This document shows positions 4,921 to 34,472 of a stretch of DNA of 64,000 bases, piece by piece. Every line of letters starts with the position of its first letter. The stretch's first letter is position 1. Position numbers and translations under genes: made by a program. The notes beneath the pieces were generated by a model. The model had not been told where the DNA came from. It searched no databases and was given only the letters and a program-made list of their open reading frames with translations. Source of the stretch: Siphonodentalium dalli (Eukaryota; Mollusca; Scaphopoda; Gadilida; Siphonodentaliidae); NCBI GenBank assembly GCA_032622095.1, contig CP136066.1:54154609-54218608 (forward strand), read 5' to 3'.

Positions 4921-4928
4921 AATATTAT

Positions 4929-25550: not shown

Positions 25551-25799
25551 TAGTTTAGTTATCAGTCGACGTTTATATATGTTTGCCATTTTTTAAAGTT
25601 CTTTCAATAGAAAATATTATAACACCACTGGCTAGTGCTAGTCAAAACATTCTAATTTCTGGGATGCCTCAAAGAAAATAACACCTTTGTTCTTATTAAC
25701 AACAACAGTACTAAAAATATATATAAAAGTCAGGAATGGACAAGATAAACTGTCAAATCTACATGATGAGCTGATACATGGCATTAACAGCTTAAGATG
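25551..25799. repeat. Short-type spacer 5, left part, interrupted by LINE
   Basis: First 249 bases of a short-type spacer (GTTTATATATG and ACAGTACTAAAA markers) with the half-monomer remnant, inverted fragment and TATATAAAAG (25720-25729). It stops at AAGATG (25794-25799) and resumes at 33988. Without the LINE and one AAGATG copy the spacer would be 728 bp, equal to spacer 7. Confidence 0.93.
25794..25799. repeat. Target-site duplication, 5' copy (AAGATG)
   Basis: AAGATG precedes the LINE here and follows it at 33988-33993. Uninterrupted spacers read CTTAAGATGCTAATG, so the empty site is restored by removing the element and one copy. Confidence 0.85.
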
Positions 25800-26300
25800 T
25801 TATCCTTCGTGATGGCGGGAAGCTAGATTTTTTCACTGCGAGGACTGATGGGGAAAATCGTTAATAAAACCTGATATCTACTTTCTTGAGGATATTTTGT
25901 ATGTGCAAATGAACAATAGCATGTCCAACTCAACGGTCATCGAAAATGTTTTCGTCTACGATGTTCTCAATCGACGTAATTATCATCTGAAGTTGAATCT
26001 CAGTACAATTCTTTGTTTGGAGTGGAGCGGCCATATTGAACTACAGTAAACAAGACTGCCGTAGCCACACACTAAGAGAACTTGGGTGAGAGAATTCCTA
26101 TTTGATTATATATATTATATATAATATTGTGAAACTATTCCGTTTAATGAGAGTCGCCATGCATTCATTGTCAAGCTGAAATAACTCTTTACAATAACTC
26201 GTGTGTGTGATTACTGTAATCCGTCATATTATCGCAAGTGCGCTAGATCGTGAACAATACTCATAAGTTTATCGATCGATCAAACTGTCTCAGTGTAAAC
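25800..26300 (+). promoter_or_regulatory. LINE 5' UTR
   Basis: About 500 bases from the insertion junction to the first well-placed ATG. A YY1-like core ATGGCGG lies at 25812-25818, about 12 bases from the element's first base, and a second related word (GCGGCCATATTG) lies near 26028. In mammalian L1 a YY1 site at a similar place directs the transcription start; the parallel is inference only. No long open frame. Confidence 0.5.
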
Positions 26301-26645
26301 ATGGATCCAAATATCGAATTCAACCCCCAGAATAGTTCTACTCCAATCGAGGGGCAGCCCGGTCCAATAAACACTACCCACCATGGGCATGACACGTCTG
26401 TGCCAATAATCCTTGAACCTGGTGCTCAACAAAAGTCTGATCTTAAAAGAGATAGATCGTCACCATTTTCGCCTTCGGATTACATAGACCCTAAAAAACA
26501 AAAGCCAGTCTATCAGGATTCTCTCATTGATGAACATTTGTCTTCGAGCGATTCATCTTCCGAAAACCATGATACCGAAGCATACTTCGAATGTAGCCTG
26601 ATAAAGGCGCTTGGTAGTGAAAGGGTGCAAATTTTTTCAGCATGA
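26301..26645 (+). CDS. LINE ORF1, N-terminal part (frame-broken)
   Basis: 114 residues. The start is set at ATG 26301, which has A at -3 and G at +4; the frame stays open upstream to 26250 but with no ATG there. The product is hydrophilic and probably disordered: Asn/Pro-rich start, a basic stretch around residues 49-68 (KRDRSSP, then KKQKP, possibly a nuclear localisation signal) and a Ser/Asp/Glu run at 81-93. This matches the low-complexity N-terminus common to LINE ORF1 proteins. It ends at TGA 26643-26645, immediately after a T6 run (26632-26637), and the stop overlaps the ATG of the next frame (ATGA). One base lost from the T run would explain the break, since the other frame then continues as typical ORF1. 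Programmed -1 slippage or stop-restart translation are alternatives; no canonical X XXY YYZ heptamer is present. Confidence 0.7.
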   Translation: MDPNIEFNPQNSSTPIEGQPGPINTTHHGHDTSVPIILEPGAQQKSDLKRDRSSPFSPSDYIDPKKQKPVYQDSLIDEHLSSSDSSSENHDTEAYFECSLIKALGSERVQIFSA

Positions 26646-27397
26646 TGATGGAAGGAATGCTTGAAAGAGTAATTACCAAAATGGCTAAGTGCGAGATCGC
26701 CAAAGTTTCTAAAGATGCGTTCGTGTCCAAAGACAAATACGACCAAGACATTGCTGAGCTCAAACATGAAATGTCTGATATGAAACGAGAACTGTCGGCC
26801 GAACGGGAGGCGCGACGGGTTGACATCCGAGACATAAAAGTCGAACTAGACGACCTGCAACAATACGGTCGCCGTACAAACCTGCGTATTTCGGGTGTTC
26901 CAGAGAGAGATAAAGAGAACACAGACCATATCGTTTTAGATGTTGCTAACCAACTTGGTATCCCTCTTGGCGACTATGATATCTACAGAAGTCATAGATT
27001 GGGCCCTAAACATATAAATCTAAACCAGAACAATAAGAATGCCACTATACCAAAAACTGTAGACGGAGCTACTGGTGCTTCATCTAGACCTAGCCAGCCT
27101 CGCCAGATTATATTCCGGCTACCCTCATACAAAATCAGGAGGGAACTTTACGGGAAGCGCCGAGACACTCCGCAAATAAAGTTGCCATATCTTGATAAAA
27201 AGATATACATTAATGAGGACCTCACCTCCACGAGAGCAACTATCTACAAGAAAGCTCGCCAGTTACGCAAAGACGAACTGATTTACCAAACTTGGACAAT
27301 CGATGGTGCTATTCTAATCAGGATAAGAGAAAGTGACAAGCCTATTAGAATCACCACAATGCAACAAATGGACCAACTAGATGGTCGCCTGCGTTGA
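26642..27397 (+). CDS. LINE ORF1 protein, main part (coiled coil + RRM-like + C-terminal domain)
   Basis: 251 residues, an RNA-binding nucleoprotein of the L1-ORF1-like type that would coat element RNA as a multimer. Residues about 31-75 form a charged heptad-like coiled coil. Residues 74-88 (QYGRRTNLRISGVPE) are the hallmark at the coiled-coil/RRM junction. YRSHRLG (115-121) lies in the RRM-like core. PRQIIFRLPSYKIR (153-166) and IYINEDLTSTRATIYKKAR (188-206) match the conserved C-terminal domain, ending with WTIDGAILIRI (218-228). An insert of low complexity (about 123-152) separates the two halves. The ATG triplet at 26642-26650 is available as a start, but the N-terminal 114-residue segment in the preceding frame probably belongs to the same ancestral protein of roughly 380 residues. 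Confidence 0.85.
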   Translation: MMMEGMLERVITKMAKCEIAKVSKDAFVSKDKYDQDIAELKHEMSDMKRELSAEREARRVDIRDIKVELDDLQQYGRRTNLRISGVPERDKENTDHIVLDVANQLGIPLGDYDIYRSHRLGPKHINLNQNNKNATIPKTVDGATGASSRPSQPRQIIFRLPSYKIRRELYGKRRDTPQIKLPYLDKKIYINEDLTSTRATIYKKARQLRKDELIYQTWTIDGAILIRIRESDKPIRITTMQQMDQLDGRLR

Positions 27398-29860
27398 AAC
27401 TTAATCGCAATGGAAAATAGAGTCAAGATGACAATATCTTGTCTTTAATTTCATATCTAACTTCGACATTTCTGATCCAGCATGGATCTTAGTTGACTGT
27501 TATACATATATTACAAACCAATAGATGTTTGCCCATACAATGTAAATATATACGCACCAATACGTTCGCCGAATTAACTGCCTTGCGATGCTGCCATAGG
27601 CGCATATACCTCCACATGTATGCATATACCAACTTAAATGCTAACCAACCATCATCTGTTCATGGCTATCCGGATTTATATATTCTATATTCAACCCACT
27701 GATCCGCAATACAAACCAAACTACACCGAGAGTTGAATAATTTACAAATAGTTCAAAAACCAGTATCTGATTCGCGATTATTTTCTGTCAAATTAAAACA
27801 CCCGGCCACCCACACCTAGAATCAGTTGCGTTTGCACATGTAACCCAAAGAATCAGTTACATTTGCACACGTAACCCAAAATAACGAATTTAAGCGAACT
27901 TAAATCTGCACGTGTAAATATACGCACCTGTCAGTGACCTCTGTATGGCGAAATCTTATGAAATAATCCAATTTTGCACAGACAAGCTAGAATATCACGG
28001 ATGCTCGCGGACTTGTACATGCATATCAGACGACTATATACAGAATGCTTGATCACATTCATAATTATCCAATCCACTAGTATGTATGCACAAGTCTGCA
28101 CCTGTTTGTTCAGCATAATAACACAACAATTCTTATACCACGGAGCACGATTTGCCATCGCCATTACGAAATGAAACCGGCCAGAACGCCAACAGTTACT
28201 GTAGATTGGGTGTATAATCACGACCTTTCAGGTCAAACTCACACGAGATAATCATTTCTATGTCAAGCGGCCAGTCTGACTGGATAATTAAAATCAAACA
28301 ACGACGTTGGTTGACCAAGGTTATGCGACGCGAATACATGTTGATATGCGCACAGGGACGCTGTGAGTACATTTTGGCATTCACTGTATAGGACGTATGC
28401 GTGCACGTGCAGGTATATATATACTCAACCAGCTTAAAGCATATATTGTCTTATTTGTGTATTTGCATTCGTATTGTTTATCTTGGTCTTATCGTTATGA
28501 TAGACATTGTGTATATATATTATTCATCGACAATATTTATACCCCCCATACCACGATATGTATAATGGCACATACTTATTCCAAACCGCCGTCTGTCCAT
28601 CTGTTCATTCCGTACTGGCTGTGAACTATTTAATTCCATTTGAGATATTTCAACCCTTGCCGTCCGTTCCCATGCAAGCATAATCGAGTGTTGAGTTCAC
28701 ATGGACTCCGATATTTATATATTTATACATGTATGCGCATGCTCCGCTGTTAAACTTTTCTTAAAAGTGCATCTACGTAATTATTATATATGTACCTTGT
28801 GTGCAATGATGTACACACGGAATATACCTTAAATCCGCACTCATTGACACGTGTGTGTACATATACAAATACTACAACACTATTGCAACGTTCTTGCGTA
28901 ACGTACGTGTACATGACAAACTTGTGCCAATCTCGCCGTTCGTTCGTCCATCCATCCATATTCTGTACTATTATATAGCTTCTAATATTACTTTATATTT
29001 TACTATATCTATGATATTTCAAACCATAACGCTGTTCACTTGCGCGTGGTGAATGAATAACTATTAGGACATTCATATGTATGTTATACAATAAGTAGGC
29101 ACTTATAGGCCATTTAAGTATTCCACACTTCCTCCAGTTCATATGCCTACTCTGTTTTTTTTTCTCCTTTCCAAGGGGTTACTGTTACTCCTTGGGGGAG
29201 TTGATCATTTGCTGGTGTTTGATATAGTTTCATATGCCCTATGATCGTGGCCTGTTTTTGGCTATTATAGCTATAGCCATTTCAGCCGCTTTTTACTTAG
29301 TGGGTTTATGGACTGGAGCTAGCGAATACTCAGCATCATTAATGTTAATTATACCAAATTATCCTCCAAATTAAATGCGACACATAAACTATGCCTTTCT
29401 CAACGCTCGGTGCTGTGCTCAAATTAAGTAATGTCGATCGATAGATTCACAGCTCACGGTTGTTGTTATGATACTGAGTGAACTATCCATGTACATCCGT
29501 TCCTTTACAAATTGATAATGCACATTTAATTGGTGAACTATACGTGCAATGCCATAATATTTTAATCCTCTCCCCATCAGTCCCCGCAATCCAATAATAT
29601 GAGTTACACCCAATGTAATGTTCTTTATCTCTTCTTTCTCTGTTATCTTTCTGCTTCTCCTCACCCCTTGTACCAAATTATCAACCATGATGTTCCACTA
29701 GAGCAGCAATTATTCATAGCCATGCACTACCATGCATCTCCATCAATATGCTTTTCTCATTTCTACAAACTTGCTATTTGTCATTGTAAGCCCGCCGCAT
29801 CCGTGACTCGGTGCCGATTAGGTCCATTTCCAGACAAGCATGCACTGTTGACGATACCTT
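27398..29860 (+). other. LINE inter-ORF region, unusually long (2.46 kb)
   Basis: No open frame with recognisable protein similarity; the frames seen are short and lack ORF1 or ORF2 motifs. It is AT-rich and contains a 31-bp tandem duplication (27819-27849 and 27850-27880, three mismatches) and a possible stem CCAAGG...CCTTGG (29171-29176 with 29190-29195). A short frame 29599-29868 overlaps the ORF2 ATG by eight bases in another phase and could be an upstream ORF. Most APE-type LINEs have short or overlapping inter-ORF spacing, so this region may be an internal insertion, a regulatory or IRES-like segment, or a lost third ORF. Confidence 0.6.
27819..27880 (+). repeat. 31-bp tandem duplication in LINE inter-ORF region
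   Basis: Two adjacent 31-base units, both beginning GAATCAGTT and ending GTAACCCAAA; three differences (TTGCGTTT against TTACATTT, CACATG against CACACG). Confidence 0.85.
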
Positions 29861-32800
29861 ATGGATAATATAGACATGTACAGGGCCAGAGTCGGTACGT
29901 TTCATGGACGGGCTGTCAGACTATCTGGGAGGGGACGACTGGACTTGAGACAGTCACAGGCATGTATATTGTATGTTCTCTACAGATTACTTGGGTTAAA
30001 ATTGAGCATGGCTTTTAGAATAGTGACATTGCTTTATGTCTCGTTTCCCATAAAACTATCACGTAGTATTCAGTTAATGAAGGATCACATCATGTTTGTC
30101 TCGCACAGCGATGGCAATGCACAATATTCGAAGACATGTATGCAAACCATATCAAAACTATGTAAGTACGTTCAACCCAAATTTACTATAATATATTGCA
30201 CGACCTTAGCATGTCTCCTGGTATTATATAAACTGCTACTCCTTTCGGGCGATGTAGAATGCAACCCTGGACCTATTCAAACCGCCGGGAATGCGAATAT
30301 TTCCATACTACTTTTAAATACTCAAAGCATGCGTCATAAGATGGATATTTTAGAGGCAGAAACTAGCAATGGTAAATACGATGTATGTTTATTTACTGAA
30401 ACTTGGGTGAATGACTCGATTGCTGATTCAGATATCCACCTTTCTGGGTACCAAACACCAATTCGAAATGATCGAACAGATGGGCGAGTCGGGGGTGGAG
30501 TGTGCATATATATACGGGACATGATTCCGTTTCGAATACGGAATGACCTGCCATCTAAAGGAAAAGAGTCCGTATGGGTGGAAGTTACTATAAATAGGAA
30601 ACATCTTCTAATAGGTTGCTTCTATAGACCCCCAAACGCCCCCACCAAAATATGGACTGATATTAATGAATGTATATCGTTGGCGCGTGATATCGACTTA
30701 GATGTGATAATAGGAGGCGACTTCAACGAAGATTACAAACCCAATGGTAACGGGAAAATTAATGGTATATGTTATGAACGCGGTCTAAAGCAACTAGTTT
30801 CTGAGGCAACACATTTTACTGAGAACTCCACTTCTATACTCGATTTGTTTATGACTAGCAACTCCGAACTAGTAGAGTCTCCATACGTCATTGGTAACAT
30901 TTTTGATAATAATGTACGCTTTCACTGCCCTGTTGTTATGAAACTTAAGCTCAATAAACACCCTATCCCTAATGTGATAACAAGAACGATTTGGAACTAT
31001 AACCTTGCAGATTATGACACCATGAACGAAGATTTTTTACAGTGGAATCACGAAGAAAGTACAATGTTACCACGGGAAAAATGGGTGGACGATATAACAA
31101 ACAAATTCGACGAGGTATGTAATGACAACATCCCACATAAGACAGTGGTAATTAGGAAAGGTATGCCACAATGGCTCACCTCAAACGTCAGGAAACTCAT
31201 GAGACAAAGAAATCGCCTTAATAAAATTGCAAAAAAGAAAGACACACAACAGGCTTGGGCCAACTTCCGGTTAAAACGCAATGAGACCATCGGTGCCATT
31301 AGAAAAAGCAAGCGGGAACTTGATGACAAAAACGAACGTTTACTAAACAATGGAAGTAGTGATCAATCAACGTGGTGGAAAATTCTTCAAAGGGTTCTGT
31401 TCTCCGATAATAAACGCACAATTCCACCTCTGGTATCAGGTGATTGTTTCCTGATTTCACCGACTGAGAAAGCAAATGCATTTAATTCCTTTTTCTGTGA
31501 GATATCCTCAGTCGATGATGTCGGGAGGGTTCTACCTGAAGACAATTTTAAACCAGACCGACCATATATAGACAGTATTTCAATAACGTCTGTTGATGTT
31601 TACAAGGCTCTAAAATCTCTGAAGGTCTCAAAATCATGTGGTCCAGATAAAATAAGTCCTAGAGTACTCAAGCATTGTGCATCTTCTTTATGTGAACCAC
31701 TTGCATCTTATTTCAAATTATTTATTGAAAACAATTATTACCCACACCAATGGAAGATATCTAATGTGACCCCGATTTTTAAGGCAGGAGATCCCGGTAT
31801 TACTTGTAACTATCGTCCAGTCTCCCTTCTTAGCTGTGTATCAAAGGTGTTTGAGAAGTGTATATATAAATATCTCTGGGAATTTCTCGAAGTCAATAAA
31901 CTACTATCAATTTATCAATCTGGATTTGTGAAAGGTGACTCAACTGTTTTTCAACTGACAGAAATATACGACAACATATGCAGGTCCCTAGATGATGGAA
32001 AGGAAATAAGATGTGTTTTCTGTGACGTTAGTAAAGCATTCGACAAGGTATGGCATCGCGGACTACTTTATAAACTAAAGAAGATAGGAATTACGGGGGA
32101 TTTACATAAACTGATTGAATCATATCTTGAACACCGACAACAACGTGTTATTATCGATGGATCAAGTTCTCAGTTGCAGAATGTTTCTGCGGGAGTTCCT
32201 CAAGGATCTATCCTAGGTCCTCTTTTTTTCTTGATATACATAAATGACATAACTGAATTCATAACATGCAACATTCGCCTTTTCGCTGATGACACTTCGA
32301 TTTTCATAACCATTGAAGACCCCAATCTTGCCGCAAAAGTTATCAATGATGACTTAGAAACTTTAATGAAATGGTCGACTAAATGGCTTGTCAAATTTAA
32401 TCCGCTGAAGACAGAATCTCTCCTGGTTTCTCGAAAAGATTCACCCGTATTACACCCACCCTTGGCATTGGGTGATACAATAGTGAACGAAGTTGACACC
32501 CACACACATCTTGGACTCATTTTTGATAACGAAGGCAGCTGGGAGATCCATATTCGCTCATTGCTGGCTAAAGCCTGGAAACGAGTGTATTTGGTACGAA
32601 AACTAAGATATCGAGCAAGCAGATCAACACTGGAAAAAGTATATTTTTCTTTTATACGTCCCTTACTGGAGTATGCCTCACCTGTATGGGACAACATTCC
32701 CGATTTCTTATCATCAGACATAGAGAAAGTTCAATATGAGATGGCTAGAATTGTAACAGGGGCAACAATTAGCGCAAATAAAGACCTCCTCCTACTGGAT

Positions 32801-33436
32801 ACAGGTTGGGAACTACTATCATCGCGACGGAGAAAACACAAACTCTGCCAATTTTTTAAAATGATCAAAGGAACAGCACCATCTATACTGAGAAATCTCG
32901 TACGCCCAGTTGATTCTTACGATACCGGTTATAACTTCCGTTTTGAGCACATAAGGTTGCCACCCGATATCTCGTACAACTATTACATGAATTCATTTTT
33001 GCCATCTGCTATAAGTGAGTGGAACTCTCTGCCTGACACAATACGCAATTGTAATACAATTGATGACTTCAAAAAATCACTAAACGCAAGCACACGGCGC
33101 CCCCCAACCTACTACTACCACAATAAGTGTCGCAGATCACATATACTTCACTCTCGCTTAAGATTAAAATGCAGTAGTTTGAACTCTGACTTATTGAGTA
33201 ATCACATTAAAACGTCCCCTCTCTGTCATTGTGGCAAAATAGAAACAGCACATCACTTCTTATTGGAATGTCCTGAATACAATGGCCAAAGGACTGAACT
33301 TATATGCGCCATACCGAATGTTATTTTATCAGAACAAACTCTTTTGTGCGGATCACAGGAACTCAGCCATCGTGATAATATTAAAATATTTGACGCGGTC
33401 CAAAGATATATTTTGAAAACAAAGCGATTTTCATAA
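29861..33436 (+). CDS. LINE ORF2: 2A peptide, AP endonuclease, reverse transcriptase
   Basis: 1,191 residues, uninterrupted. Residues 1-137 are a leader with two hydrophobic segments (about 34-62 and 108-128), ending in the 2A motif GDVECNPGP (130-138). Ribosome skipping would fall between G137 and P138 and release the enzyme part from P138. The APE-type endonuclease spans about 147-362: N153, FTETW with E180, GGDFNED with D287 and N289, LDLF with D328, and H355 in RFHCPV, where the family usually has SDH. The reverse transcriptase spans about 580-860: CGPDKISP, YRPVSLLS (651-658), the first catalytic Asp D722 in CDVSKAFD, GVPQGSILGP (778-787) and FADD (808-811). Near the C-terminus CHCGKIETAHHFLLEC (1122-1137) is a CCHC-like motif common in invertebrate LINEs. 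The enzyme would nick target DNA and copy the element RNA there. The ATG has a weak context (C at -3, G at +4); M50 and M73 also lie ahead of the 2A. Confidence 0.95.
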   Translation: MDNIDMYRARVGTFHGRAVRLSGRGRLDLRQSQACILYVLYRLLGLKLSMAFRIVTLLYVSFPIKLSRSIQLMKDHIMFVSHSDGNAQYSKTCMQTISKLCKYVQPKFTIIYCTTLACLLVLYKLLLLSGDVECNPGPIQTAGNANISILLLNTQSMRHKMDILEAETSNGKYDVCLFTETWVNDSIADSDIHLSGYQTPIRNDRTDGRVGGGVCIYIRDMIPFRIRNDLPSKGKESVWVEVTINRKHLLIGCFYRPPNAPTKIWTDINECISLARDIDLDVIIGGDFNEDYKPNGNGKINGICYERGLKQLVSEATHFTENSTSILDLFMTSNSELVESPYVIGNIFDNNVRFHCPVVMKLKLNKHPIPNVITRTIWNYNLADYDTMNEDFLQWNHEESTMLPREKWVDDITNKFDEVCNDNIPHKTVVIRKGMPQWLTSNVRKLMRQRNRLNKIAKKKDTQQAWANFRLKRNETIGAIRKSKRELDDKNERLLNNGSSDQSTWWKILQRVLFSDNKRTIPPLVSGDCFLISPTEKANAFNSFFCEISSVDDVGRVLPEDNFKPDRPYIDSISITSVDVYKALKSLKVSKSCGPDKISPRVLKHCASSLCEPLASYFKLFIENNYYPHQWKISNVTPIFKAGDPGITCNYRPVSLLSCVSKVFEKCIYKYLWEFLEVNKLLSIYQSGFVKGDSTVFQLTEIYDNICRSLDDGKEIRCVFCDVSKAFDKVWHRGLLYKLKKIGITGDLHKLIESYLEHRQQRVIIDGSSSQLQNVSAGVPQGSILGPLFFLIYINDITEFITCNIRLFADDTSIFITIEDPNLAAKVINDDLETLMKWSTKWLVKFNPLKTESLLVSRKDSPVLHPPLALGDTIVNEVDTHTHLGLIFDNEGSWEIHIRSLLAKAWKRVYLVRKLRYRASRSTLEKVYFSFIRPLLEYASPVWDNIPDFLSSDIEKVQYEMARIVTGATISANKDLLLLDTGWELLSSRRRKHKLCQFFKMIKGTAPSILRNLVRPVDSYDTGYNFRFEHIRLPPDISYNYYMNSFLPSAISEWNSLPDTIRNCNTIDDFKKSLNASTRRPPTYYYHNKCRRSHILHSRLRLKCSSLNSDLLSNHIKTSPLCHCGKIETAHHFLLECPEYNGQRTELICAIPNVILSEQTLLCGSQELSHRDNIKIFDAVQRYILKTKRFS
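30248..30274 (+). other. 2A translational-recoding site
   Basis: Codons for GDVECNPGP; the full D(V/I)ExNPGP consensus is met. The residues just before it are hydrophobic (LYKLLLLS), as in active 2A sequences. Skipping is expected between the GGA at 30269-30271 and the CCT at 30272-30274. Confidence 0.9.
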
Positions 33437-33622
33437 GGATATGATAGGTACACACACTTCGTGAAAAGCATGGAATATTACCGCTAAGCGCAAAACTTAC
33501 CCGCCCAAGATCGTCTGACATCTCACGGCGACGGGCGTAGCAATGACACAAACAATAGTATATGTACAGCATTGTAACCAATCAGCTGCAACTGAATTAC
33601 ATCCTCACTTTACCCAGACAGT

Positions 33623-33627
<5 letters not shown>

Positions 33628-33657
<30 letters not shown>
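33628..33657. repeat. (CT)n microsatellite
   Basis: Fourteen uninterrupted CT units in the LINE 3' UTR, followed by an imperfect pyrimidine-rich stretch up to 33688. Confidence 0.95.
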
Positions 33658-33660
<3 letters not shown>

Positions 33661-33688
33661 GTCTTCTTTCACCCTTTCTCTCTTTCTC

Positions 33689-33733
<45 letters not shown>
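33689..33733. repeat. (TA)n microsatellite
   Basis: About 22 TA units with one G interruption at 33706, directly after the pyrimidine tract. Confidence 0.95.
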
Positions 33734-33968
33734 CTTCCTGTCTATCATAACATCATCATTACTATTATTATTATTATAATATTTCCATTCCTTCCCGTCT
33801 GACCCCCCTCTACACTTAATGAAGAGTGGGCGCGAAAAAAAAAGGGAGCAAACTTAACAAAAGCCCTTGGGCTTGTTGTTTAATCCCTTTTCCAATCCAA
33901 CAATCATTTATCCTATTCTGTTTTTATTGTCAACACTTTGTCAAATGTATATATGTTATTATGATTGG

Positions 33969-33974
33969 AATAAA
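33969..33974 (+). terminator. Polyadenylation signal AATAAA of the LINE
   Basis: Canonical hexamer just before the element's 3' end; the only one so placed. Confidence 0.6.
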
Positions 33975-33987
33975 ATATGTTTACATC

Positions 33988-34472
33988 AAGATGCTAATGT
34001 GTTTTGTCACATTGATTAGGTATTGTTTTGACAAGTCAACAACCACTGACATCAAAGCTGGAGCATTATGTGTCATTAGATAGTCTATTGTTTGTCACAA
34101 AGTGAGAACTTTTCACATCATTAGCAAGTTTGAAGTGAGGGTTTAAATATTCTGCAGAAACTAAATTTTCAGCATAACATCAACTGTAGTGGGCAGGAAA
34201 GCAGCTAGGATTTAATATTATAACAACTTGTGTTTTTTTTCAATATTGGATTATTTTAGGCATCCAAGCTTAAGGTAAGGTATATTAATTTTTTTATAAT
34301 CTTAGATTTGTGTTTAAAATCAATCACAACACATTTTTTTTTTCGATTGTAAAATTTATGGATTTACATTTAATATCATTCATCCAAAAGTAACTTTTAA
34401 AATTAAACAAATGTCCTAAAAAAAAGTTAATAGAAACATTCAGTTGAAATTGTTCTGACATTCAAATTGGTT
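33988..34472. repeat. Short-type spacer 5, right part, after the LINE
   Basis: Starts with the 3' target-site duplication AAGATG (33988-33993) and continues the spacer exactly where 25799 left off. It lacks the 492-bp block (GTTTAAAATCAATCAC is continuous near 34313) and the 65-bp segment, so it is short type. The splice-site-bracketed 15-mer is at 34260-34274. Confidence 0.93.

Follow-up and report, generated by a model that had tools for sequence, protein, structure and literature searches.

A canonical, probably active 2A (StopGo) element in front of the ORF2 enzyme of an APE-type LINE in Siphonodentalium dalli

2A sequences have reportedly been described in APE-type non-LTR retrotransposons of multicellular organisms by Odon et al. 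in 2013 (Mol Biol Evol), and L1Tc of Trypanosoma cruzi is said, from the work of Heras et al. in 2006, to have a 2A in frame with its LINE proteins. The occurrence of 2A in LINEs is already known, and the element from S. dalli adds another case. Like both of these systems it carries a 2A in frame with LINE proteins, and it shares with the Odon elements the APE type and a multicellular host. Features that may set it apart from the latter are its Cys at p15, a leader somewhere between 44 and 137 aa long and the 2.45 kb of spacer between its ORFs; from L1Tc it reportedly differs in host group and ORF layout.

The 2As of sea-urchin NLR immune proteins offer a further comparison (SpNLR2A; Roulston et al. 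2016, PMC4981915). In the parts of that paper drawn on here, sea-urchin 2As are split into a LINE group and an NLR group, the NLR ones being those tested, and virus and LINE 2As are described as internal. SpNLR2A is like the S. dalli sequence in its long hydrophobic run into D(V/I)ExNPGP, but it is 26 aa long and stands at the N-terminus of NLR proteins, whereas here the cargo is a retrotransposon enzyme and the start is uncertain. SignalP predicted 12 of 14 NLR 2As to be signal sequences. The natural SpNLR2A6 skips at ~80% and its major products are cytosolic, whereas its recoding-dead mutant P3A sent the reporter mainly to the Golgi (PMC4981915), a pattern that fits exposure of the helix only in unskipped chains. 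The sequence-only reading of the S. dalli locus had mentioned that some N-terminal 2As of sea urchin double as signal sequences; those tested in PMC4981915 belong to NLR proteins, and the same parts of the paper make no targeting claim for a LINE 2A.

The window, a stretch of 64,000 nucleotides that was analysed as a whole, is mostly satellite of ~160 bp with larger repeated units, and the element is a single insertion into this array bounded by target-site duplications (Table 1). CAGCTTAAGATG has 13 exact copies in the window, 12 of which continue directly into CTAATGTG. The copy at 25788 is the only split one, its halves being parted by the inserted unit with AAGATG on each side, and this 6-bp duplication is intact on both flanks. 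The unit is 8188 bp long and apparently full-length, and it encloses an ORF1-like frame, the 2.45-kb spacer and ORF2. An insertion with target-site duplication, and an APE endonuclease followed by a reverse transcriptase (RT) in a single ORF, are as expected of an APE-type LINE. The satellite with its larger repeated units extends over 1-25614 and 34468-64000. Four stretches of 1222 bp, starting at 4923, 10572, 17009 and 22658, and eight stretches of 653-659 bp to the right of the LINE are unmatched by the satellite query.

Table 1. Coordinates of the LINE insertion and its features within the window
Feature	Position	Strand	Basis or remark
Whole LINE insertion	25800..33987	+	split target string at 25788
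5' target-site duplication AAGATG	25794..25799	.	target-string comparison
3' target-site duplication AAGATG	33988..33993	.	target-string comparison
114-aa frame, TGA overlapping the ORF1-like ATG (ATGA)	26301..26645	+	open frame
ORF1-like frame, 251 aa	26642..27397	+	open frame, sub-threshold Pfam matches
ORF2: leader, 2A, APE endonuclease, reverse transcriptase; 1191 aa	29861..33436	+	ORF, Pfam and L1 homology
M50; leader would be 88 aa	30008..30010	+	sole one of six ATGs with purine at -3 and G at +4
M94, nearest in-frame ATG upstream of 2A; 44-aa leader if used	30140..30142	+	without purine at -3, without G at +4
Predicted hydrophobic helix, residues 110-128	30188..30244	+	KD 2.24, protein maximum; low-confidence model
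StopGo/2A: LLLLSG (125-130), then DVECNPGP (131-138)	30233..30274	+	motif, context class of PMC12846837
Predicted skip site G137/P138	30269..30274	+	motif; PMC12846837

ORF2 has a reading frame open from 29852, and by its homologies it is a LINE ORF2 of the APE type. Pfam gave RVT_1 at 1.3e-29 and Exo_endo_phos at 5.7e-9, with Exo_endo_phos_2 just under the cut-off, and in the PDB it matches human L1 ORF2p best (6.4e-18). Residue 2 of human L1 ORF2p aligns with residue 141, which places the skip site immediately in front of the enzyme. After the predicted skip the enzyme would begin three residues ahead of the L1 alignment start, and relative to L1 the leader is extra. The N, E, DxN and later D and H of the endonuclease, which together with the Asp of SDH are presumably its catalytic positions, are kept in the alignment to L1 ORF2p. 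The SDH position reads RFH (30917-30925), with Phe where L1 has Asp, which could mean an impaired endonuclease in this copy or a difference shared by its family. Single-sequence structure prediction of the endonuclease was poor (pLDDT 33.4).

GDVECNPGP lies in frame at 30248-30274 (ORF2 residues 130-138), with the D(V/I)ExNPGP core at 30251-30274. A degenerate DNA pattern encoding G-D-[VIM]-E-x-N-P-G-P has this single match in the window and was found in 0/100 dinucleotide shuffles. With residue frequencies taken from the ORF2 protein itself and residues treated as independent, chance would produce the core octapeptide 2.4e-6 times in a protein of this kind and 2.6e-4 times over the six frames of the window, and a core preceded by LLLL[SAC]G about 2e-10 times. 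The exact GDVECNPGP DNA pattern had 0 matches in the viral contigs. As a control, a looser DNA pattern matched two stretches there, both lacking an L-rich lead: one is in frame in a 986-aa ORF, and the other is in a frame of 102 aa that lies opposite a collagen-like ORF. The agreement of motif, context class, Pfam matches, L1 ORF2p homology and insertion anatomy supports the sequence-only reading of a full 2A consensus at residues 130-138 of a LINE ORF2, here of the APE type.

The residues before the core also belong to a known class of upstream context. In the parts of a 2026 survey used here (PMC12846837), LLLLSG-like sequences form one of four major StopGo hexapeptide groups, and the L-rich motifs 2 and 6 associate with D at p12 and end in (A/S/C)G. 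An example of motif 6 was active in vitro, in reticulocyte lysate (PMC12846837). The S. dalli sequence has LLLLSG, with G at p11 and D at p12. The variable p15 is biased to P, S, T, L, E, K, Q and A, with S for the L-rich motifs (PMC12846837). LLLLSG-DVECNPGP fits the survey context save for its Cys at p15, which is absent from these favoured residues.

Taken together, these features point to a canonical, probably active StopGo (2A) element fronting the LINE ORF2, with a hydrophobic stretch that mainly serves skipping (probability about 0.8). During ORF2 synthesis the L-rich helix and DVECNPG would lie in the exit tunnel, the G137-P138 bond would not be formed and the leader would be released. 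Translation would then resume at P138 and give a free endonuclease-reverse transcriptase with an N-terminus close to that of an ordinary ORF2p. With G137 in the P-site, 9 to 27 residues separate the helix at 110-128 from the transferase centre, a distance that the length of the exit tunnel would hold. Since the helix would still be inside the ribosome at the skip, SRP could not have seen it exposed beforehand, and stalling is probably its main job. According to the part of PMC11512398 cited here, the tunnel can accommodate the 20-30 aa of a 2A tract. If skipping is efficient, exposure of the helix during translation would be confined to unskipped chains. Should the released leader, or a minor unskipped fusion, have a role at a membrane, it would be secondary. 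Active skipping is made less certain by the Cys at p15, the single copy with no relatives in the scans below, the split of ORF1 into two frames and the Phe at the SDH Asp position.

The hydrophobic stretch, which had been placed before the motif at about 108-128, is present: no other 19-residue window of the ORF2 protein is as hydrophobic as residues 110-128 (KD 2.24), which adjoin the 2A core, as in 2A signal sequences of the SpNLR type. The interval from 30173 that had first drawn attention begins at ORF2 residue 105. A rough additive insertion energy is negative only at 110-128 among the 12 windows listed, the next lowest value being 0.12. KD 2.24 was reached by 65/5000 random 137-mers of endonuclease-RT (EN-RT) composition, 56/3000 nucleotide shuffles of the leader, 335/5000 shuffles of the leader's own residues and 83/1000 shuffles of the whole 1054-residue EN-RT, so that the segment is unusual, but not extremely. 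The RT core reaches KD 1.43 at residue 784. Two membrane-like segments had been proposed for the leader; the one at 110-128 is indeed of transmembrane (TM) grade, but the second, at about 34-63, peaks at KD 1.58, the maximum in residues 1-100, and this value was reached by 540/5000 random 100-mers of EN-RT composition. A single-sequence structure model of the leader, of low confidence (mean pLDDT 44.3), has helices over a good part of its length, one of them at 109-128.

The sequence-only reading had proposed that the released peptide, or an unskipped fusion, might go to a membrane while the enzyme stays free. After efficient skipping the released leader would end in the helix and nine residues (from 128 to G137), a tail-anchor layout, and it might insert into a membrane after release by this TM helix and its terminal SGDVECNPG. 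By the tunnel length assumed above and PMC11512398 (in part), the segment must still be in the tunnel when release occurs, as such insertion would have it. The released peptide may, however, simply be degraded, and its hydrophobicity is equalled in 335 leader shuffles and 83 EN-RT shuffles of the sets given above. Tail anchoring is judged unlikely. By analogy with SpNLR2A, residues 110-128 could instead be a signal anchor that takes unskipped ORF2p to the ER while the skipped enzyme stays free. The segment is of TM grade, its lead has a net charge of +3 with a start at M94, and the SignalP predictions and the Golgi location of P3A would be precedents. These precedents lie in NLR proteins and not in LINEs, however, and the N-terminal position of the helix depends on which ATG is the start. 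StopGo already explains the L-rich helix, the same shuffles match its hydrophobicity, and an ER-bound nuclease/RT would be without evident use. This dual function appears quite unlikely. A broader proposal, in which one hydrophobic 2A segment is both skip signal and membrane anchor and skipping efficiency or start choice divides the products between free enzyme and membrane-bound leader or enzyme, is judged very unlikely.

The length of the leader depends on the start codon. Six in-frame ATGs precede the 2A, at residues 1, 6, 50, 73, 78 and 94, so that the released leader could have 44-137 residues, and the 137-residue peptide proposed earlier presupposes initiation at M1. Should translation begin at M1 or M50, the upstream leader would emerge from the tunnel ahead of the skip, and the ER could then capture it first. 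According to the part of PMC2978324 cited here, some upstream proteins of artificial polyproteins inhibit 2A through their C-terminal region when they are translocated into the ER.

It is also possible, though doubtful, that the frame upstream of about residue 94 is untranslated and that the leader is a 44-aa peptide from M94. The adjacent 2.45-kb spacer has open runs of up to 95 codons (forward) and 98 codons (reverse), so the roughly 100 open codons upstream are not special, and that this frame is open says little in favour of coding. For codons 1-97 the in-frame score does not exceed the out-of-frame scores, and the leader has no Pfam match up to E 1. On the other hand, a 100-codon open run has a probability of 0.0013 under independent bases, and M94 lacks the purine at -3 and the G at +4 that M50 has. 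Codon statistics cannot tell the coding status upstream: an in-frame advantage is also missing from the last 100 codons of ORF2, which are coding, and scores for synonymous usage are equally low in segments known to be coding. The short leader, the tail anchor and the dual function could each coexist with active skipping.

At E values up to 1 the ORF1-like frame matched six Pfam families, none of them reaching its curated cut-off, among them Baculo_FP_2nd (0.0048) and Transposase_22 (0.056), the latter being the L1 ORF1 RBD-like domain. Inspection by eye suggested a coiled coil. The 114-aa frame in front of it has no Pfam match up to E 1, and a run of six T adjoins the ATGA overlap of the two frames. 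The overlap may reflect stop-start reinitiation as in the silkworm LINE SART1, for which it is reported in the part of PMC5972666 cited here, or a break in the ORF1 frame. It is very improbable that the motif sits in a dead copy and has no present function. The division of the ORF1 region between two frames and the Phe in the endonuclease would agree with such decay, but the 1191 codons of ORF2 are open, the 6-bp duplication is intact and the 2A core is fully canonical.

The spacer between the ORF1-like frame and ORF2 (27398-29851) holds 61 ATGs, which would make plain scanning from ORF1 to ORF2 unlikely. It includes a 31-bp tandem duplication at 27818-27879. A 28-nt inverted repeat, 82% complementary, joins the 5' end of the element (25827-25854) to the spacer upstream of ORF2 (29571-29598). 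No Rfam family matched the 5' end, and its fold z-score of 0.98 indicates a stability no greater than that of shuffles. A nested insertion was considered as the source of the long spacer; among the repeats listed there were no convincing terminal repeats, and the spacer yielded no tRNA and no Rfam family at the gathering score, although a later insertion within it is conceivable. The region 27301-30300 has two GTRAGT donor-like sites and a few acceptor-like sites, and splicing out of the spacer can be offered as an idea only. A consensus-like donor GTAAGT lies at 30162, inside ORF2 and a little upstream of the 2A. CTACAG at 29980-29985 resembles an acceptor and ends 22 nt upstream of M50.

Scans of viral contigs and genome contigs with six peptide patterns each, from which distant relatives could escape, gave no relatives of ORF2, nor of an 80-aa stretch of its RT. 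A tblastn search of plasmids returned one record, from Alicyclobacillus, whose match falls in the RT part, covers 31% of the query and has 25.6% identity. Among the matches listed in open-licence literature, as judged by titles and abstract lines, none described a LINE 2A as a membrane signal. Roulston et al. note, in the parts of PMC4981915 drawn on here, that a modest number of point mutations could switch a signal sequence to a recoding sequence or the reverse, and a LINE 2A whose leader is of TM grade lends itself to examining such interconversion. The S. dalli element adds an apparently full-length LINE, bounded by target-site duplications, with a 2A directly before the enzyme, and it lends support to the simple idea that the purpose of 2A in LINEs is to separate ORF2p from an N-terminal extension.
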